From NCBI RefSeq assembly GCF_011207455.1, contig NZ_CP048877.1, positions 2,100,576 to 2,164,575 of the forward strand: 64,000 nt of DNA, given 5' to 3'. Position 1 is the stretch's first letter. Each line of letters starts with the position of its first letter. The stretch is from Thermosulfuriphilus ammonigenes. GTDB lineage: Bacteria; Desulfobacterota; Thermodesulfobacteria; Thermodesulfobacteriales; ST65. Below the pieces are notes generated by a model that had not been told where the DNA came from, ran no database searches, and saw only the letters and a program-made list of their open reading frames with translations. Position numbers and translations under genes: made by a program. Shown here piece by piece: positions 5,306 through 59,296 of this stretch.

Positions 5306-7015
5306 TTACTTGGCCGGATGTTTGAATTGGGGGTGCTTCCGATCGTAGGTCTTCCTCTCCTTGTGACAGCCCACCAGACAGCTTCCTCCGGTATCGGTGA
5401 GCTGGAAACGGAGCTCCTTCCGCAGACCGCGATATTCTGTCTTCTCACGGATGTGTTTGGGCTGGTTGCTGGCGTGGATGGCATGGCAGGCCTTACAGGA
5501 GTTGCCGTTTTTGCGCCTTACGTGGGCGTAGTGGAGGTTATAATTTCCATCTCGGAAGTTGGTCAGTACAGTGGTGAACTTGACCTCGATGACATTTTTA
5601 TTGTGACAGCTGTAGCACAGATCGTACTTGCCAGGGTGGTAATCAGTTAGAAAGCCCGGCGGGAAATCCCGCACCAAAAGGCGCCTGAAGGCTGACCCGT
5701 GGGGATTATGGCAGGCATCACAGGTTCCATCCTGGACCGGACCATGAAGGTATTGGGCGTTGCGGACCTCTCGCCCCAGATCCTTATGGCAGGAGAAGCA
5801 AAGGTCGGCCTCAAAGTCCTTAAGAAGGGCCTCATAATTGGAGGTGTGTGGCTGGTGACAGTCCACACAGCGTCCGGCCTCTACTGAAGGATGGCGGTAT
5901 TTGGCCTCCTTAATAGTGGCGATAACCTCAGGGTTTAGCTTTTTATGGCAAGAGATGCATAGCTGCCCGCTGGGCTTAAGGAGCTGATAGCGATAGTCGG
6001 AGCTATGAGGATCATGACAATTGGCACAGCTCTCCGCCACCGGTTGGTGGACATGGGCCATGGAGAATTCTTCTTTACGGTCTTCATGACAGGTGAGACA
6101 TATCTTGCCGCCTTTAAGCGGAGCAGAGAGCAGGTGATCATAGGCCGAACCGTGATGATTGTGGCAGGCGATACACTCCCCATCGGCTACCGGGCCGTGA
6201 GGGTAGCGGCGGTTAAAAAGCCTTCTTTCGTGGCATTGAAAGCAGACACTACTTACATTGCCCTCACCCTTGAGGTGGAACTCCATTTTGGACCCGTGGG
6301 GATCATGGCAATTGAGGCAGTCATCCTTTCCGGGAGGGTGAACCACCCGCTGTTCAAATTCGGCCTTTGTCCCCTCATGGCAGATGAAGCAAAGCTCCCT
6401 TCCCTGGCGGACCAACTGGTTCCGATTACTTGACCCGTGAGGGTTGTGGCACTGAATACACTCGTTGTTCTTAAGAGGTCCATGAAGATGAGGGGCTTCT
6501 TTTATCTCTTGGTGACATCCACCGGTGGTGCAGTTGCTGGCCACCGGCAGGGTGAGGGAAAAGTCAAGCCGCCCTTTTCTTTTGGGATGGCATTCGGAAC
6601 AGTCAAGGCGAGTCGGAAGACTGTGAACATAAAGCCTTTTAAAGCCTGCGGGCGGTTTTTCCCCTTTGGGGGCGTAAAAGATCTGGACTTCTTTCTTTAA
6701 ACCCTTGGCCTCAATGGTGACCCGGTTAAGGCCTTTCTTCAGGGTGATAACCACCCCAAAGGCTCCGTCTTTCAGGGGAACAACATTTGTCTCCCCTGAA
6801 GAAACCTTAACCCCTTCTATCTTGACCTCTTTTGTCCCGGGCAATTGGAGAATTCCGGCGATGTAGATCTGGCTCTGATCTACCCAGACCTTATCAAGGG
6901 GAGGATAGAGCTGGAGGGCGTTGGTGGTCTTTCCCTCGGCTGGAGGGGAAAGAAATGCCAGTGTCAAAATGAGGCCCATCAAGGTCAGAAGGCTTTTGAA
7001 TGTTTTTCTTTTCAT
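5306..7015 (-). CDS. Periplasmic multihaem c-type cytochrome (up to 16 haem sites, doubled-CXXCH type)
   Basis: The protein has 14 CX2CH haem-binding motifs plus a CX4CH (CTTGGCH) and a CX3CH (CLVGCH). Most are arranged as the paired C-x2-C-H-N/D-P-H-G/S repeats of the doubled-CXXCH family. ATG 7015 follows GAGGGGAAAAG and opens an evident signal peptide (MKRKTFKSLLTLMGLILTLAFL, cut near PPAEG); a longer upstream frame exists but would remove this arrangement. Residues about 35-130 before the first haem form a beta-rich, haem-free domain. It is probably an electron carrier or respiratory reductase partner in the periplasm. It is co-transcribed with the upstream TlpA/TPR gene, 40 nt away, which suggests a role in cytochrome assembly or the same respiratory process. 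Confidence 0.9.
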   Translation of the reverse strand: MKRKTFKSLLTLMGLILTLAFLSPPAEGKTTNALQLYPPLDKVWVDQSQIYIAGILQLPGTKEVKIEGVKVSSGETNVVPLKDGAFGVVITLKKGLNRVTIEAKGLKKEVQIFYAPKGEKPPAGFKRLYVHSLPTRLDCSECHPKRKGRLDFSLTLPVASNCTTGGCHQEIKEAPHLHGPLKNNECIQCHNPHGSSNRNQLVRQGRELCFICHEGTKAEFEQRVVHPPGKDDCLNCHDPHGSKMEFHLKGEGNVSSVCFQCHERRLFNRRYPHGPVADGECIACHNHHGSAYDHLLSAPLKGGKICLTCHEDRKEEFSMAHVHQPVAESCANCHDPHSSDYRYQLLKPSGQLCISCHKKLNPEVIATIKEAKYRHPSVEAGRCVDCHQPHTSNYEALLKDFEADLCFSCHKDLGREVRNAQYLHGPVQDGTCDACHNPHGSAFRRLLVRDFPPGFLTDYHPGKYDLCYSCHNKNVIEVKFTTVLTNFRDGNYNLHYAHVRRKNGNSCKACHAIHASNQPKHIREKTEYRGLRKELRFQLTDTGGSCLVGCHKERKTYDRKHPQFKHPAK

Positions 7016-7055
7016 CTTTTCCCCTCGGGCAATAGATCTTTGATGGCCATTCATC

Positions 7056-8084
7056 TTAACTTCCCTGCCCCATGGTTTCCTGAAGTAGCTCATAGGCCTT
7101 GCGGAAATATTTAGAGGCCAGCTTTAGCCGACCGGTTTCTTGATAAAGGATACCCATCCAGTAGTGTATCTCTGGATTGCGGCGATTACTGAGGAGGAGA
7201 AGGTTAAGATCCTCCAGGGCTCCTTCTTTGTCTCCTCGAGCCGCCCGGAGCAGGGCCTGACAGATCTTGGCCTGCACCACATTGGGGTCGAGTTCCAGAC
7301 TTTTCTTGATTAGCCCCTCGGCCTCTTTAAGACGTCCTAAGTCCAGATAAAGACAACCCAGCTGGGCGTAGGCCGGGGCAAAATAGGGATTAAAGCGGAT
7401 GGTTTCCTGAAACTCCTTGATGGCGGCACTTTTCATCCCCCGCCGGCGCATCTTGAGGCCTAACTTAAAGTGGAGACGGGCCTTCTTTTCCCGTTCGGAT
7501 TTTTTAAGACTGCGGGGGTAAAACTCGGCCAGGATCTCCTCTCGAGTCTTCTCCCCGGTAAGAACCAGGATCTCGCCCTGTATTCTTTTGATAAGTTCTC
7601 GGGCATATCCCATGCCGGCGGCGATCCGGCCGTCTTTATCGACGATAAGGACGGAGGGAGTGACAAAGAGTCCCAGGGTACTATAAGCCTGCTGAAGGCT
7701 ATCAAGATAGACGGGCAGATCCAACCCGGCGGCTACAGTTACCCCTCGGATCACCTTGGGGGGATCGCCCTGGACGTTAATGGTCAGGACTACCACCCCC
7801 CGGTTTTCAAAAAAATCCAGATTTTGCTGGAGCTCTCGGAAGAACTTGATGGTCAGCTTCTTCTTTCGGGGGACGTCAGCTCCCCAGAAGATAAGGACCA
7901 GAGGATGCCCCTTGAGTTTGGCCAGAGAGACCTTTTTGCCGCTTTCAAAGTCCACCACCGTAATGTCTGGAAGCGGATCCCCGATCTCTACCGAACGGAA
8001 GGGAAAGGCAAAGGAGGTGTTCCAGCAGAGTAGCCCGATCAGAAAAGCAAAAGTCAGAGCCGGGATGATAGTTCTTTTAATCAA
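7056..8084 (-). CDS. Exported TlpA-like (redoxin-fold) protein with C-terminal TPR repeats, lacking redox cysteines
   Basis: TTG 8084 follows AAGGAGGG and begins a signal peptide (MIKRTIIPALTFAFLIGLLC...SFA). Residues about 33-175 resemble TlpA/AhpC-TSA thioredoxin-fold proteins (GDPLPDITVVDFESGKKVSL, LVLIFWGADVP, TPSVLIVDKDGRI). Where the CXXC should follow FWG there is ADVPRKK, so no disulfide chemistry is expected. Residues about 200-335 contain about four TPR repeats (for example FAPAYAQLGCLYLDLGRLKE). It may be a periplasmic scaffold or chaperone for the following multihaem cytochrome, by analogy with redoxin/TPR cytochrome maturation proteins. That function is an inference. Confidence 0.8.
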   Translation of the reverse strand: MIKRTIIPALTFAFLIGLLCWNTSFAFPFRSVEIGDPLPDITVVDFESGKKVSLAKLKGHPLVLIFWGADVPRKKKLTIKFFRELQQNLDFFENRGVVVLTINVQGDPPKVIRGVTVAAGLDLPVYLDSLQQAYSTLGLFVTPSVLIVDKDGRIAAGMGYARELIKRIQGEILVLTGEKTREEILAEFYPRSLKKSEREKKARLHFKLGLKMRRRGMKSAAIKEFQETIRFNPYFAPAYAQLGCLYLDLGRLKEAEGLIKKSLELDPNVVQAKICQALLRAARGDKEGALEDLNLLLLSNRRNPEIHYWMGILYQETGRLKLASKYFRKAYELLQETMGQGS

Positions 8085-8300
8085 GACGACCCTCCTTAAT
8101 TAATAATATTCTTAAGGGTTGGTTGTTTGTTGGATAAATAACGACTTTATTGGTCAAGTTTTGCCAATTATCTCCATACAAAATAAACATTTTCTTCTTG
8201 AAGCTTATAGAAGTTCTGGTTCTAGTTGTCAATTTTAATTTCTAATTCTCCGGTATCTGTCAATGGCATGATTCCGGGCAGGGTGGTGTTTCGGCTGGTG

Positions 8301-8333
8301 TGTCAAAAAAGACGACATGTCTTTTGGTTGACA
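8301..8333. promoter_or_regulatory. Two-tiered inverted repeat (candidate operator) upstream of the first sigma-54 activator gene
   Basis: Inner arms AAAAGAC (8307-8313) and GTCTTTT (8319-8325) are perfect around GACAT. Outer arms TGTCAA (8301-8306) and TTGACA (8328-8333) are also complementary, and the right outer arm doubles as the -35 hexamer. Such placement suits a repressor or autoregulatory site. The rest of 8085-8300 is AT-rich and shows no gene. Confidence 0.5.
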
Positions 8334-8357
8334 CTTTCAACCTGTCTGGTGTATCCT
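8328..8357 (+). promoter_or_regulatory. Sigma-70-type promoter for the response regulator at 8388
   Basis: TTGACA (8328-8333) and TATCCT (8352-8357) are separated by 18 bp, 30 nt before the ATG. The -35 is a perfect consensus; the -10 is fair. Confidence 0.55.
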
Positions 8358-8387
8358 TAATCTGCATTTAGTGGGAGGTTTTTCTCT

Positions 8388-9800
8388 ATGGCCAACGAAT
8401 CCATCCTGGTCGTTGATGATTCCGAGGCAGTTCTTTCCAGTATCTCGGAGACCCTTCTCGCCCAGGGCTATGAGGTGGACATGGCCCGGGATGGGGAAGA
8501 GGCCATCAAGAAAATCGATTCTCGTTTTTATGATTTAGTCCTTACAGATCTCTCTATGCCCAAACGGGGAGGGATGGAGGTTCTTAAACATGTTCGGGAG
8601 AGTTGCCCCGAGACGATGTGCGTTATAATTACCGGCTTCGGCACCATTCGTAACGCGGTAGAAGCCATAAAACTGGGTGCCTTTGATTATCTTACCAAGC
8701 CTGTCAAGACGGATGAGATCCTAATCGTTATCGAACGGGCCCTGGAGTGGCGAGATCTTAAGCGGGAGAATCAGGCCCTTAAGACCCAGCTTAGAGCCCA
8801 GTATCGTTTTGACCGCATCATTGGCAAAAGTGAGCGCATGCAAGAGGTCTTCCGAATGATCGAGCGGGTAGCGGCCACGGATTCAACCGTTCTTATCCTC
8901 GGCGAGTCCGGGACCGGTAAAGAGCTTATTGCCAACGCCATCCATTACGCCAGCGATCGTCGAGAGGGGCCGTTTATTCCTGTAAACTGTGGAGCTATTC
9001 CCGATGAGCTTCTGGAAAGTGAGCTCTTTGGCCATGAAAAGGGGGCCTTTACCCATGCCATAAGGACTAGAATTGGCCGCTTTGAGCTGGCCAATAAGGG
9101 GACCATCTTTCTGGACGAGATTGCCGAAATGAGCCCCCGACTCCAGGTAAAGTTACTTCGGGTCCTCCAGGATCGAGCCTTTGAACGTGTTGGGGGGGTA
9201 AAGACCATCAAGGTTGATATCCGAATTATTGCCGCCACCAACCAAGACCTTGAGAAAATGGTTCGCGAGGGCCGTTTTCGGGAAGACCTTTACTATCGCC
9301 TTAATGTCATTCCCATCCACGTCCCCCCACTCCGGGAGAGGAAAAGCGATATTCCTCTTCTGGTTCAGGCCTTCCTGGAGCGTTTCTCTAATAAGAGGGG
9401 CCGGCGGTCTACCATGCGGATTACCGATGAGGCTCTGGGTTGCCTTATGCGCTATCACTGGCCGGGTAACGTACGGGAGCTGGAAAATCTCATCGAGCGC
9501 TTAGTGATTCTCTGCCCTTCGGATACCATTACGGTTAAGGATCTGCCAGACTACATTCTCGGCCAGGTTGACACCCCGGAGGCCTCACCGGAAATAGAAA
9601 TCCCAGATGAAGGGATCAGTCTTTCGGCGGCGGTGAGCGAATTCGAGCGAAAGCTGATTATTCAGGCCCTCAATAAAACCGGGTGGGTCAAAAACCGGGC
9701 CGCTCAACTCTTGCGGGTTAATCGCACTACCCTCATCGAAAAGATGAAAAAGCAAAAACTATACGGTCCCCCCAAGGTCAGTCGGGCGTCAAACAATTGA
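8388..9800 (+). CDS. NtrC-family sigma-54-dependent response regulator (GAFTHA variant)
   Basis: The 470-residue protein has a receiver domain at residues 1-120 (VVDDSE, phospho-acceptor Asp in LVLTDLSMP, Thr in ITGFG, Lys in LTKP). An AAA+ domain spans about 140-375 (Walker A GESGTGKE, NCGAIP, Walker B TIFLDEIAE, WPGNVREL). A Fis-type helix-turn-helix lies near 430-455 (NRAAQLLRVNRTTLIEKMKK). The sigma-54-contacting loop reads GAFTHA instead of GAFTGA. No sensor kinase is adjacent. Its position at the head of the flagellar region, and the sigma-54 promoters downstream, suggest a flagellar master regulator of FlrA/FleQ or FlrC type, but this is an inference. Confidence 0.92.
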   Translation: MANESILVVDDSEAVLSSISETLLAQGYEVDMARDGEEAIKKIDSRFYDLVLTDLSMPKRGGMEVLKHVRESCPETMCVIITGFGTIRNAVEAIKLGAFDYLTKPVKTDEILIVIERALEWRDLKRENQALKTQLRAQYRFDRIIGKSERMQEVFRMIERVAATDSTVLILGESGTGKELIANAIHYASDRREGPFIPVNCGAIPDELLESELFGHEKGAFTHAIRTRIGRFELANKGTIFLDEIAEMSPRLQVKLLRVLQDRAFERVGGVKTIKVDIRIIAATNQDLEKMVREGRFREDLYYRLNVIPIHVPPLRERKSDIPLLVQAFLERFSNKRGRRSTMRITDEALGCLMRYHWPGNVRELENLIERLVILCPSDTITVKDLPDYILGQVDTPEASPEIEIPDEGISLSAAVSEFERKLIIQALNKTGWVKNRAAQLLRVNRTTLIEKMKKQKLYGPPKVSRASNN

Positions 9801-54965: not shown

Positions 54966-56111
54966 TATTAATCAGAGCACAAAATAGTCGACATCAATCT
55001 AAGGCATATCTTACCATCGGAGCACGAAAGTAACTCCTCACTATCTCCGGCTGCCTCTGCGTGCTCATAAGATAGCTGCGTACATTACCCTCCATCTCCT
55101 CCATATTCCGCTTCCGGCGCCTCCCCCCCGCATTCGTCTTCACATCCTGGTTCAAATACTCATCCGGATTAAGCTCCGGACTGTATCTCGGCAAATAATG
55201 CAGTTCCAACTCGTCCTCTTTGCCCTTCAACCACTCCTTAATCCTCTTTGCCCGATGCACACGGTGATTATCCACTATAAGATAAATCTTCCGCCCCTTT
55301 TCTCGTGATCTTATCAGCCTTCTTAAAAATTCAAGAAAAACTTCTGTCGTAAATCTCTCCCTAAAAATCATAAACTTAAGCTTCCCCCGGTTGTTGATGG
55401 CAGAAATCATATTGAATCGAAATCTCTTGCCGCTCACCTCCACCACCGGTGTCTCTCCCCTCGGCGCCCAACTCCTCCCCGCTTGATGATCTGACCTGAT
55501 CCCTGTCTCATCTCCCCACCAAATCTCTGCCCCTTCCTCCTTGGCCCTCTTCCTTATCCGGGGATACTCCTTCTCAAGCCAGGCCTTTACTTCCTTCGGA
55601 TTTCTTTCATAGGCCCGTTTCAAAGGCTTCTGCGGCGTGAAATTCCATCGCCTCAAATACCGGCCCACCGTCCATATCGAAAGCCTTATCCCAAACTTCC
55701 TCTCTATCAGTTGCCCCACCGCCTCCCTGGTCCAAAGGGAAAAGGGAAGCTTCAACTGATCAGGACAACGGTCCCGGATGATGCTACAAATGGTAGCTGC
55801 TTGCCAGCCCAAAAGTTTTCCTCCCTTAGGACGTCCGCGAGGCTTGATTTTAAGGGCTTCCTCCCCACCTTGGCGATAAAGTTTTAGCCAGTAAGTCACA
55901 GTGGTTCTGGCTATTCCCAACATTTGGGCCACTTCTTCCTGGGTTTTTCCTTGTTCCAACACGGCGTGGACGGCTCTAAAACGCAAGGCCTCCTGAGCTT
56001 TGGGAGGAAGTTTACGGGCGTCTATTCTGGGAACTTTTGGAGTGCTAAAGTCCATATCCTTGTATACCAGGGATTTGCCCTATTGTCGAGTGTTTTCTGC
56101 TCGAATTAATA
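54966..56111. mobile_element. Complete IS630-family insertion sequence
   Basis: The element has one transposase gene bracketed by 28-bp terminal inverted repeats that match at 23 of 28 positions. Left is 54966-54993 (TATTAATCAGAGCACAAAAT...) and right is 56084-56111, read on the minus strand (TATTAATTCGAGCAGAAAAC...). Both outer ends start with TA, as expected for IS630/mariner elements that duplicate a TA target. The transposase stop codon directly abuts the left repeat. It separates glyQ from the tRNA-Glu gene. Confidence 0.9.
54994..56055 (-). CDS. IS630-family DDE transposase
   Basis: The 353-residue protein is full length for the family. An N-terminal helix-turn-helix pair (TQEEVAQMLGIARTTVTYWLKLY) and a winged segment (IERKFGIRLSIWTVGRYLRRW) bind the ends. 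The catalytic DDE domain shows WWGDETGIRSDHQAGRSW, IYLIVDNHRVHRAK and LPRYSPELNPDEYLNQD, with all three acidic residues in place. No frameshift is seen, so the element may be active. AAGGAT precedes ATG 56055. Confidence 0.95.
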   Translation of the reverse strand: MDFSTPKVPRIDARKLPPKAQEALRFRAVHAVLEQGKTQEEVAQMLGIARTTVTYWLKLYRQGGEEALKIKPRGRPKGGKLLGWQAATICSIIRDRCPDQLKLPFSLWTREAVGQLIERKFGIRLSIWTVGRYLRRWNFTPQKPLKRAYERNPKEVKAWLEKEYPRIRKRAKEEGAEIWWGDETGIRSDHQAGRSWAPRGETPVVEVSGKRFRFNMISAINNRGKLKFMIFRERFTTEVFLEFLRRLIRSREKGRKIYLIVDNHRVHRAKRIKEWLKGKEDELELHYLPRYSPELNPDEYLNQDVKTNAGGRRRKRNMEEMEGNVRSYLMSTQRQPEIVRSYFRAPMVRYALD

Positions 56112-56223: not shown

Positions 56224-56299
56224 GGTCCCATCGTCTAGTGGCCTAGGACACCGGCCTCTCACGCCGGAAACCGGGGTTCGAGTCCCCGTGGGACCGCCA
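56224..56299 (+). tRNA. tRNA-Glu (CTC anticodon)
   Basis: A 76-nt cloverleaf with encoded CCA. The acceptor stem GGTCCCA/TGGGACC pairs perfectly. The anticodon arm CCGGC-CTCTCAC-GCCGG gives anticodon CTC (codon GAG). The T arm CGGGG-TTCGAGT-CCCCG is perfect. The discriminator base is G. It lies between the IS630 element and the AT-rich cytochrome region. Confidence 0.97.
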
Positions 56300-56678: not shown

Positions 56679-57290
56679 TTACTCATATCCTAGGATCATG
56701 GCCTTAAAATGGGAGTAGACAGTGTGTCCTAAGGTGGCCAGATAAAGATGGGCCAGGAGGAAACAAATAAAGATATAAGCAAGTATAATATGAACTCCAT
56801 CCACAACTCGGACACCGCCTAGAATATCAATTACCGGCCGGAAGAAGTTAATGTTCCATAATAAGACGCCACTTATAATTTGAAGAGGCAGAAAGATAAC
56901 CATGATAATAAAATAGGCTGTTTTCTGTAGAGGGTTAAATTTGGCCTCCGGTTTAGGTTCAAAGGGAGCTGGATCTCCGAGGAAATAACCGAAAAGGTAG
57001 TAATATGCTTGCGAAGGAATCCCCTTTAAAAAATCTTGTTTCGTTGGAATGTACTGTTTTTTGAAATCTTTATTTATAAGATATGTTGAATACCATGATA
57101 AGTAATCCAATAATACTATAAAGCCAAATAAATTATGATAATGAATTGCTCTTTTAAGGTTGCCGAACAGGTTAAATAAATCAGGAAATCTTATCTGTAT
57201 TCCAGTAATTATTAACATGACTATGCTTATGGCATGTACCCAATGATAAATTCTTACCCATATTGGATTTATAATTTCTTTTGTCTTCAT
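56679..57290 (-). CDS. Cytochrome b561-like integral membrane protein
   Basis: The 203-residue protein has four membrane segments and the His pattern of the cytochrome b561/formate dehydrogenase gamma/thiosulfate reductase b family. RIYHWVHAISIVMLIITGIQI has the first ligand, HYHNLFGFIVLLDYL the second, and VDGVHIILAYIFICFLLAHLYL the later ones. It probably passes electrons between the quinone pool and the periplasm. It follows the multihaem cytochrome gene by 23 nt and is AT-rich like it. The closest functional assignment (quinol oxidase or reductase partner) is an inference. Confidence 0.88.
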   Translation of the reverse strand: MKTKEIINPIWVRIYHWVHAISIVMLIITGIQIRFPDLFNLFGNLKRAIHYHNLFGFIVLLDYLSWYSTYLINKDFKKQYIPTKQDFLKGIPSQAYYYLFGYFLGDPAPFEPKPEAKFNPLQKTAYFIIMVIFLPLQIISGVLLWNINFFRPVIDILGGVRVVDGVHIILAYIFICFLLAHLYLATLGHTVYSHFKAMILGYE

Positions 57291-57313
57291 CTTTATATCA
57301 CCTCAGGTTTTTT

Positions 57314-59296
57314 TTATTTTTCTTCTTTCCTTCTTTTTCTTATTTTTATGGTAACTATTCTGATGATAGTATGTAATCCGAAAAACAGAATTACGGAAAA
57401 TATTAAAAATATTCCAAATATGTCTAGCCATTTATACCCGATTTTTCTGATTACATATATAAACTCTTCTATATCTCTTTTGGACACCCTTTTTTCGCCT
57501 AGTAGGTAGAAGTCGCTGGTGATTGGTATTGGATGGATGGCTACTAATATACTTTTATCTACGTCTATGGTGCTTATTGTTCCACCCGGTTCTGGAACTT
57601 CTAAAACAAGTTTGGAGTAAAACTCGGCTCGTGGAGAATGGCATATAGAGCATTGCTTGGCCTTTGTCCCTTTATCTGTATAGTTATGGGATGGCTTAAG
57701 AACTAATACATTTACACCTAAGTCTATTTTCTCCCAATTTCTTTCTTCTTTTTTGTCGCGGAAAGAATTTAATAGTTTAATAAAGAATATTATTTCTCGA
57801 TCTTCTAAAAAACCATCGTCATTTTTATCTATAAAGCTTATTAGATCTTGATTGCTTAGTTTGTTCTTGTCTTTTCCAACTAGAAAGTCTATTATATCTT
57901 CATAAGTAAGTCGCCATTCTTTCCCTTTTTTGTCTATTGCTCTTAAGTAAAATACTATGCCCTTTTTAGCTTTTGGAGAATGACACATTGTACATTCAAG
58001 AAATTTGAAGTGAATACGACGTTGTGGTAGCCAGTCATGTTTTCTTTCTATATTTTTATGGCATTTTGTGCAAATTTTTTGGCGTTCTTCTGCGCTTAGT
58101 TGTGAAAATGGTATGCTCGAATGTGGATCATGACAGCCAAAACATATTTTTTTGCTTACTCTATAATGAAGGCTGTTTTTGTATTCTGCCATGATCTCTT
58201 CATGACATTTTTCACATACTGGAGGTCCTAGAGTTTTTACTGAGAAACCTTCTCCAGTTCTTAGAACTTTGAGGTCAGCATGGCACTCTATGCATTCAAT
58301 TCCGTTTCTTCCATGTACAGTATCCCAGTAATAGTCTTTTGTTGGAATAGGAGGTATTTTAGCTATAATAGATTTATCTACACGGACAGTGGTCCATTTC
58401 TCTTTCTCTGGAATTTTTAGAAATATTTCTTGATAGAATGGTGCTTTAGATGTATGGCACATTGTACAATCTTTGATGTGTTCAACTTCATCTGTAAAAT
58501 TATGATATGGCGTTAAAATAAGAATTTGTTCTTTTAGTCTTGGCTTTCCGATTTTGCTTTTTTCTATTTTAGAAAATAATGTTTTAACTTCTTCAATTTG
58601 GATGATGCGGTCTCGATTGGTGTCGATATTTTCTTCTATCTTAGAGGTTTTAAGTATTTGGCTTAATTCCTTATAAGTTAATACTCTATTGCCAACTCCT
58701 CCTCTATCAACAGATATAAAGAACTCTAAAGCCTTTTTGGCTTTTGGAGCATGACATACAGTACATTCTAAATATTTAAAATGATATTCCTGTTGAGGAA
58801 GCCAATTATGCTTTACATCCTTGTGACATTTTAAGCAAATAGCTATCCGTTTTTTTAACGAAAGCTCTCGGAAACTCTGAGTATAGTGTGGATTGTGACA
58901 TTCGTAACACAGCCGCTTACTTACTCGAGCATGTTTACTTTCTCGGTATTGATCAACTATTTCTTGGTGGCAGCTTGAGCAATCCACAGCACCCATCCGC
59001 TGGGGATGAGGTATCTCACTTATTTCGGTATGACAATCAAGGCAGTCTAGCTCTCCATGAACCGAGGTCTCAAAACGAGAGGCCTCCACATAAAGGCTAA
59101 TTCCTCCCTTCCGAACGGCCTTTTTTCCCGGAGTTGGTACCACCATCTCTAGGCGTTCTTCGGGAGACAGGTGAAGGATATCTTTGCTTCCGTGACACCC
59201 GAGACAGTCTTCTTTGTCAAGAGCAAAAAGATCGCTAGTTAAGATATTAGTAGATATGAATAAAAAGAAGAGAATTTGAACTATTTTTCCGTTCAT
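57314..59296 (-). CDS. Membrane-anchored 13-haem cytochrome c with two EF-hand loops
   Basis: The 660-residue protein has a signal peptide (MNGKIVQILFFLFISTNILT...) and 13 CX2CH motifs. It has one C-terminal membrane segment (WLDIFGIFLIFSVILFFGLHTI, residues about 623-645) with a Lys/Arg-rich tail. Two halves repeat the same order: CSSCHQEIVDQYRESKHARV / CEKCHEEIMAEYKNSLHYRV, then HNPHY / HDPHSS, WLPQ and ECTVCHAPKAKK / ECTMCHSPKAKK, then an EF-hand. Loop 1 is D-T-N-R-D-R-I-I-Q-I-E-E (near 223) and loop 2 D-K-N-D-D-G-F-L-E-D-R-E (near 488). It probably forms a periplasmic electron conduit with the downstream cytochrome b. GGGAGGGG precedes the ATG. Much of the gene is AT-rich compared with its neighbours, suggesting transfer. 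Confidence 0.9.
   Translation of the reverse strand: MNGKIVQILFFLFISTNILTSDLFALDKEDCLGCHGSKDILHLSPEERLEMVVPTPGKKAVRKGGISLYVEASRFETSVHGELDCLDCHTEISEIPHPQRMGAVDCSSCHQEIVDQYRESKHARVSKRLCYECHNPHYTQSFRELSLKKRIAICLKCHKDVKHNWLPQQEYHFKYLECTVCHAPKAKKALEFFISVDRGGVGNRVLTYKELSQILKTSKIEENIDTNRDRIIQIEEVKTLFSKIEKSKIGKPRLKEQILILTPYHNFTDEVEHIKDCTMCHTSKAPFYQEIFLKIPEKEKWTTVRVDKSIIAKIPPIPTKDYYWDTVHGRNGIECIECHADLKVLRTGEGFSVKTLGPPVCEKCHEEIMAEYKNSLHYRVSKKICFGCHDPHSSIPFSQLSAEERQKICTKCHKNIERKHDWLPQRRIHFKFLECTMCHSPKAKKGIVFYLRAIDKKGKEWRLTYEDIIDFLVGKDKNKLSNQDLISFIDKNDDGFLEDREIIFFIKLLNSFRDKKEERNWEKIDLGVNVLVLKPSHNYTDKGTKAKQCSICHSPRAEFYSKLVLEVPEPGGTISTIDVDKSILVAIHPIPITSDFYLLGEKRVSKRDIEEFIYVIRKIGYKWLDIFGIFLIFSVILFFGLHTIIRIVTIKIRKRRKEEK

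Follow-up and report, generated by a model that had tools for sequence, protein, structure and literature searches.

In Geobacter, CbcBA operates between menaquinone and the periplasmic cytochromes, and a reverse role has been proposed for the CbcBA of Seep-SRB2 (PMC10553843, PMC12307469). The Geobacter pair is part of Cbc5, the product of the cbcEDCBA gene cluster (PMC11434368). Complexes of the CbcBA type are a mark of low-energy extracellular and syntrophic respiration. Calcium is known from other multihaem systems: NrfA is a multihaem electron-transfer protein with Ca2+ (PMC8840924), and in simulations of MtrCAB the Ca2+ bound to MtrB alters haem-haem distances (PMC12076491). A literature search found no paper that treats CbcBA and calcium together, and EF-hands go unmentioned in the CbcBA papers queried; the main CbcBA paper, of 2021, was outside the reach of the search, which leaves this absence unproven.

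The 64,000-nt stretch of the Thermosulfuriphilus ammonigenes genome analysed here (the window) carries a pair of adjacent genes (Table 1) that we identify, on the basis of their homology, gene order and haem count, as encoding a CbcBA-type inner-membrane quinol/cytochrome-c oxidoreductase with a tandemly duplicated CbcA. To the whole reading, in which this complex would be a quinone-periplasm electron conduit with Ca2+ most likely in a structural role, we give a probability of roughly 0.8. An earlier note on this DNA had proposed a quinone-periplasm conduit, and membership of the CbcBA family with its b561 partner bears that part out.

Table 1. Features of the CbcBA locus and its flank, in window coordinates
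Feature	Position	Strand	Basis or remark
IS630 transposase	54994-56055	(-)	one of five genome copies, 99-100% identical
tRNA-Glu	56224-56299		
CbcB-like cytochrome b561, 203 aa	56679-57290	(-)	PF01292 (Ni_hydr_CYTB), E 1.1e-23; four family-invariant His
CbcA-like 13-haem cytochrome c, 660 aa, 1+6+6 haems	57314-59296	(-)	ORF and family-profile match
CbcA unit 2, residues 319-658: six haems, EF loop 2, membrane anchor	57323-58342	(-)	domain match
C-terminal transmembrane helix of CbcA, ~residues 619-653	57338-57442	(-)	hydropathy peak 2.45; C-terminal helix in unit model
EF-hand loop 2, DKNDDGFLEDRE, residues 490-501	57794-57829	(-)	pattern; helix-loop-helix, pLDDT ~80 in unit model
CbcA unit 1, residues 68-323: six haems, EF loop 1	58328-59095	(-)	domain match
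EF-hand loop 1, DTNRDRIIQIEE, residues 225-236	58589-58624	(-)	pattern and unit comparison
Putative signal-type hydrophobic stretch, CbcA N-terminus, ~residues 1-25	59222-59296	(-)	hydropathy only

The CbcA-like protein begins with a single haem motif that is followed by two six-haem units, with CxxCH at residues 31, 85, 106, 130, 154, 178, 277, 335, 361, 385, 409, 435 and 549 (n = 13). The two units are 38% identical to one another (E 3e-60) and the family profile of the CbcA unit matches the protein twice (759.6 bits), in keeping with the duplicated 13-haem cytochrome with two EF-hand loops that had been described from the sequence. That description placed each loop after a haem cluster; each half does have its loop, but the loop lies inside the cluster, between the fifth and sixth CxxCH of the unit. 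The EF pattern appears twice in only 0.02% of shuffles of the protein, and the remaining ORFs of the same loci, 146,065 aa in all with 11 other multihaem ORFs among them, have no match to it. Hydropathy and the unit model agree on a membrane anchor at the C-terminus, as is typical of the CbcBA type and as the earlier note had also read it. The gene for the partner, likewise correctly recognized as b561-type, lies 23 bp downstream of the CbcA ORF; its family-invariant histidines are H16, H52, H167 and H181, and since four invariant histidines suffice, CbcB probably carries two b haems. Modeling of CbcA was of uneven quality. The AlphaFold2 model of unit 2, built from four sequences only, is poor overall (pLDDT 54.8), with the EF part forming a helix-loop-helix between strands at pLDDT ~80; the full-length CbcA model reached 35.5, and Foldseek found no match to the unit model at E <= 0.001.

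With a profile built from 11 CbcA units, the unit was found in 45 of the 395 genomes searched in this phylum. At least one EF-hand loop is present in the CbcA of every one of the 45 genomes, just ahead of the last haem motif, and when all loci were scored, 44 had CbcB either as a same-strand neighbor of CbcA or in fusion with it, the sole exception being a locus cut by a contig end. A single-sequence scan of genome contigs gave one locus. At three loci (L062, L063 and L067) a 7-haem CbcA is followed in turn by CbcB, a multihaem protein with 9-12 haems, an ORF with 1 haem and one more ORF, which is the gene order of the Geobacter cbcEDCBA cluster, so that the link to the G. sulfurreducens CbcA is one of gene order and haem count. 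The window protein, with 13 haems, departs from the seven of the Geobacter-type single-unit form; because haem number varies in the CbcA family (7, 13 or 25), we class it as a duplicated variant, distinct from the Geobacter form. This distribution rules out the undescribed system that the earlier note had suspected, since the haem-EF-haem arrangement with a b561 partner belongs to a known and common family. At one locus, CbcA and CbcB are fused in a single 575-aa protein (L066:4920-6647). Another, beside a duplicated CbcBA, encodes a 636-aa multihaem c plus b-type membrane protein with a CbcL-like layout (L009:2085-3995, (-)).

The best match in the PDB is 28pb_A, named 'Cytochrome c' (E 1.7e-27). 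This protein is a single unit with an EF loop, DTNNDNYISLAE, at the place equivalent to the window loops. The CbcA of L063 shares 65% identity with it and that of L061 66%, and on that account it is probably itself a CbcA; window CbcA is ~27% identical to this type of single unit.

The 13-haem form with two EF loops is, on present sequence comparisons, an old tandem duplication common to several other families. Besides the window, it occurs in family f13 (four genera), f82, f80 and one f56 genome, and the loci L017, L055, L056, L057 and L009/L054 all share the duplicated layout and the CbcB partner, with CbcA identities to the window protein of 58% (L017) and 60% (L009); these loci have a GC of 49-59%, well above the 35.6% of the window gene. 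In a quick tree of moderate support, the first and the second unit of the window protein each cluster with their positional counterparts from other proteins, which implies that the duplication is older than the spread of the 13-haem form. Window CbcB falls nearest L009 and f13, and not with relatives from its own order, in a tree whose smallest groups lack strong support. These own-order relatives (L019-L023 and L060) have the C-terminal EF unit and CbcB, as in the window; their chains differ in carrying 13 or 25 haems with one EF loop, and in an N-terminal part that is a different extension with no tandem copy of the EF unit. The 25-haem chains with a single C-terminal EF loop (L021:4793-7504 and L060:3418-6132) are apparently fusions with the 12-haem neighbor that L020 and L023 encode separately.

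The AT-rich CbcBA copy was probably acquired horizontally, as had been suggested earlier from its low GC and its position beside a tRNA and an insertion sequence, both of which are as described. The GC content of the CbcA and CbcB genes is 35.6% and 34.8%, respectively, against a genome mean of 51.9% (436 sampled 1-kb windows), and 57001-58000 is the lowest of these at 31%. A GC near 35% in a 52% background, together with the finding that no CbcBA lies within 1.5 kb of greA in 23 relatives, is the basis for this view. The sampled duplicated relatives range from 41 to 59% GC, all higher than the window copy. In 13 of the 23 relatives greA keeps an Lrp/AhbA-like neighbor. The 23 greA neighborhoods gave no clean empty site, and in relatives DUF2250 is not found within 1.5 kb of greA or the tRNA. 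The five IS630 copies, nearly identical as they are, point to an element that was recently mobile. The module was rejected as cargo of this element, a tRNA and a DUF2250 gene standing between the two and IS630 being one of five copies. No direct repeats were seen to flank the module, and scans for promoters and terminators stayed close to shuffled expectation. The host genome has many other multihaem ORFs, including 26-haem, 16-haem and 14-haem proteins, which could be partners of CbcBA. Those with 26 and 16 CxxCH are adjacent (L127:8413-10458 and 7247-8443) in a large cytochrome cluster with 8- and 5-haem ORFs nearby; the window also holds a 595-aa ORF with 14 CxxCH and no EF loop (5306-7093, (-)).

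The EF loop is, as judged from alignments, a nearly invariant hallmark of the whole CbcA family and no oddity of a single gene. Among 57 units, position 12 is Glu in 57 and position 1 is Asp in 56 (the lone exception is unit 2 of G382), while position 3 is Asn or Asp in 55/57 and position 5 is Asp, Asn or Ser throughout (57/57). Position 6 is Gly in most units (35/57) but Arg in loop 1 of the window. Filtering at 80% identity left 51 non-redundant units in an alignment of 237 columns, in which Glu 12 (51/51) ranks 20th and Asp 1 (50/51) ranks 24th, as conserved as the Cys and His of the haem motifs; positions 2, 7, 10 and 11, which are not ligands, belong to the more variable columns. Conservation, the unit model and profile matches thus agree on the pattern D-x-[DN]-x-[DNS]-x-x-hydrophobic-x-x-x-E with flanking helices. 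Through the loop segment, the family profile matches EF-hand proteins in the PDB (EhCaBP, calbindin, calmodulin and oncomodulin; E 3e-8 to 9e-4), and the single window sequence scores 14.2 bits with the Pfam EF-hand model, under the cut-off of 25.4. What the earlier note had called an unusual design is therefore real as to EF-hand loops in a multihaem protein, but the loop is a property of the family in all 45 genomes. This family-wide loop, which that note missed, is the most interesting part of the finding: it offers a simple sequence marker for CbcA, and the conservation of its key ligands at the level of haem ligands suggests a calcium requirement in CbcBA complexes that has gone unreported.

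From the architecture, family, conservation and pairing, which are read from sequence, one can sketch how calcium binding, haem ligation, the path and direction of electrons, and the physiological role might fit together. CbcB would exchange electrons with the quinone pool, and CbcA, held at the membrane by its C-terminal helix, would relay them along its 13 c haems in the periplasm toward soluble or outer cytochromes, or carry them in reverse. Each unit contains six conserved histidines outside the CxxCH motifs (80, 122, 137, 163, 172 and 265 in unit 1; 328, 377, 392, 420, 429 and 537 in unit 2), and this number, one per haem, suggests that the six haems of each unit are bis-His ligated. The last of these in each unit, H265 or H537, belongs to the EF-hand insert and stands just ahead of the final CxxCH. 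The predicted Ca2+ would, by analogy with other multihaem systems, most likely be structural, locking the EF insert that would hold one haem ligand and with it the geometry or potential of the unit's last haem. In three single-unit proteins this last His is replaced and the EF loop is kept, so the loop is not there for placing that His alone.

The canonical loops adjoin the last haem of each unit, and the MtrCAB simulations cited above offer a precedent for a calcium effect on haem spacing; both would suit the calcium-responsive switch of the earlier note, in which reversible binding at the EF loops shifts the potential or docking of that haem and quinol-periplasm flow follows periplasmic or environmental Ca2+. 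Yet the ligands are near-invariant in every lineage, which favors a constitutive, permanently occupied structural site, and single loops, unlike pairs, are atypical of cooperative sensors. Moreover, marine or groundwater habitats hold millimolar Ca2+, enough to saturate most EF-hands. The switch is thus unsupported, and we regard it as improbable. One degenerate loop in 57 might be taken to mean that these are vestigial loops or a mere fold motif with no metal bound, but the conservation of ligand positions 1, 3, 5 and 12 while their neighbors 2, 7, 10 and 11 vary freely makes this a very improbable account. Least credible of all is a dedicated reductase module of the thiosulfate, hydrogenase or formate type, in which CbcB would be the b561 subunit, for the similarity of CbcB to the b subunits of thiosulfate reductase and hydrogenase stays under curated cut-offs throughout, no catalytic subunit lies next door, and its partner across loci is consistently CbcA. 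Filing the pair under thiosulfate reductase was rejected because the matches fall under the curated cut-off, as was the decahaem DmsE/GSU2203 family (75.3 of 192.2 and 61.6 of 325 bits).

With a CbcBA-type conduit and structural calcium as the preferred reading, a bolder extension is conceivable, though we offer it as speculation with the odds against it: every CbcA might depend on Ca2+ through an EF-hand by the membrane-proximal haem, CbcBA respiration near the thermodynamic limit might be calcium-dependent, and each of the two sites of a duplicated CbcA might tune or gate its own haem cluster.

Set against the described systems, the locus resembles Geobacter CbcBA in its CbcA unit, its C-terminal anchor and its b561-type CbcB downstream, and the 7-haem relatives with Geobacter-type gene order likewise place an EF loop between their last two haems. 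It differs in that CbcA is duplicated, with 13 haems and two EF loops, an example of conduit lengthening by duplication of a whole EF-containing unit, and in that the cbcC-D-E neighbors are absent. The predicted CbcA calcium site is also unlike those of other multihaem systems, for the NrfA site is no EF-hand between haem motifs, and in MtrCAB the Ca2+ site of MtrB is on the porin.
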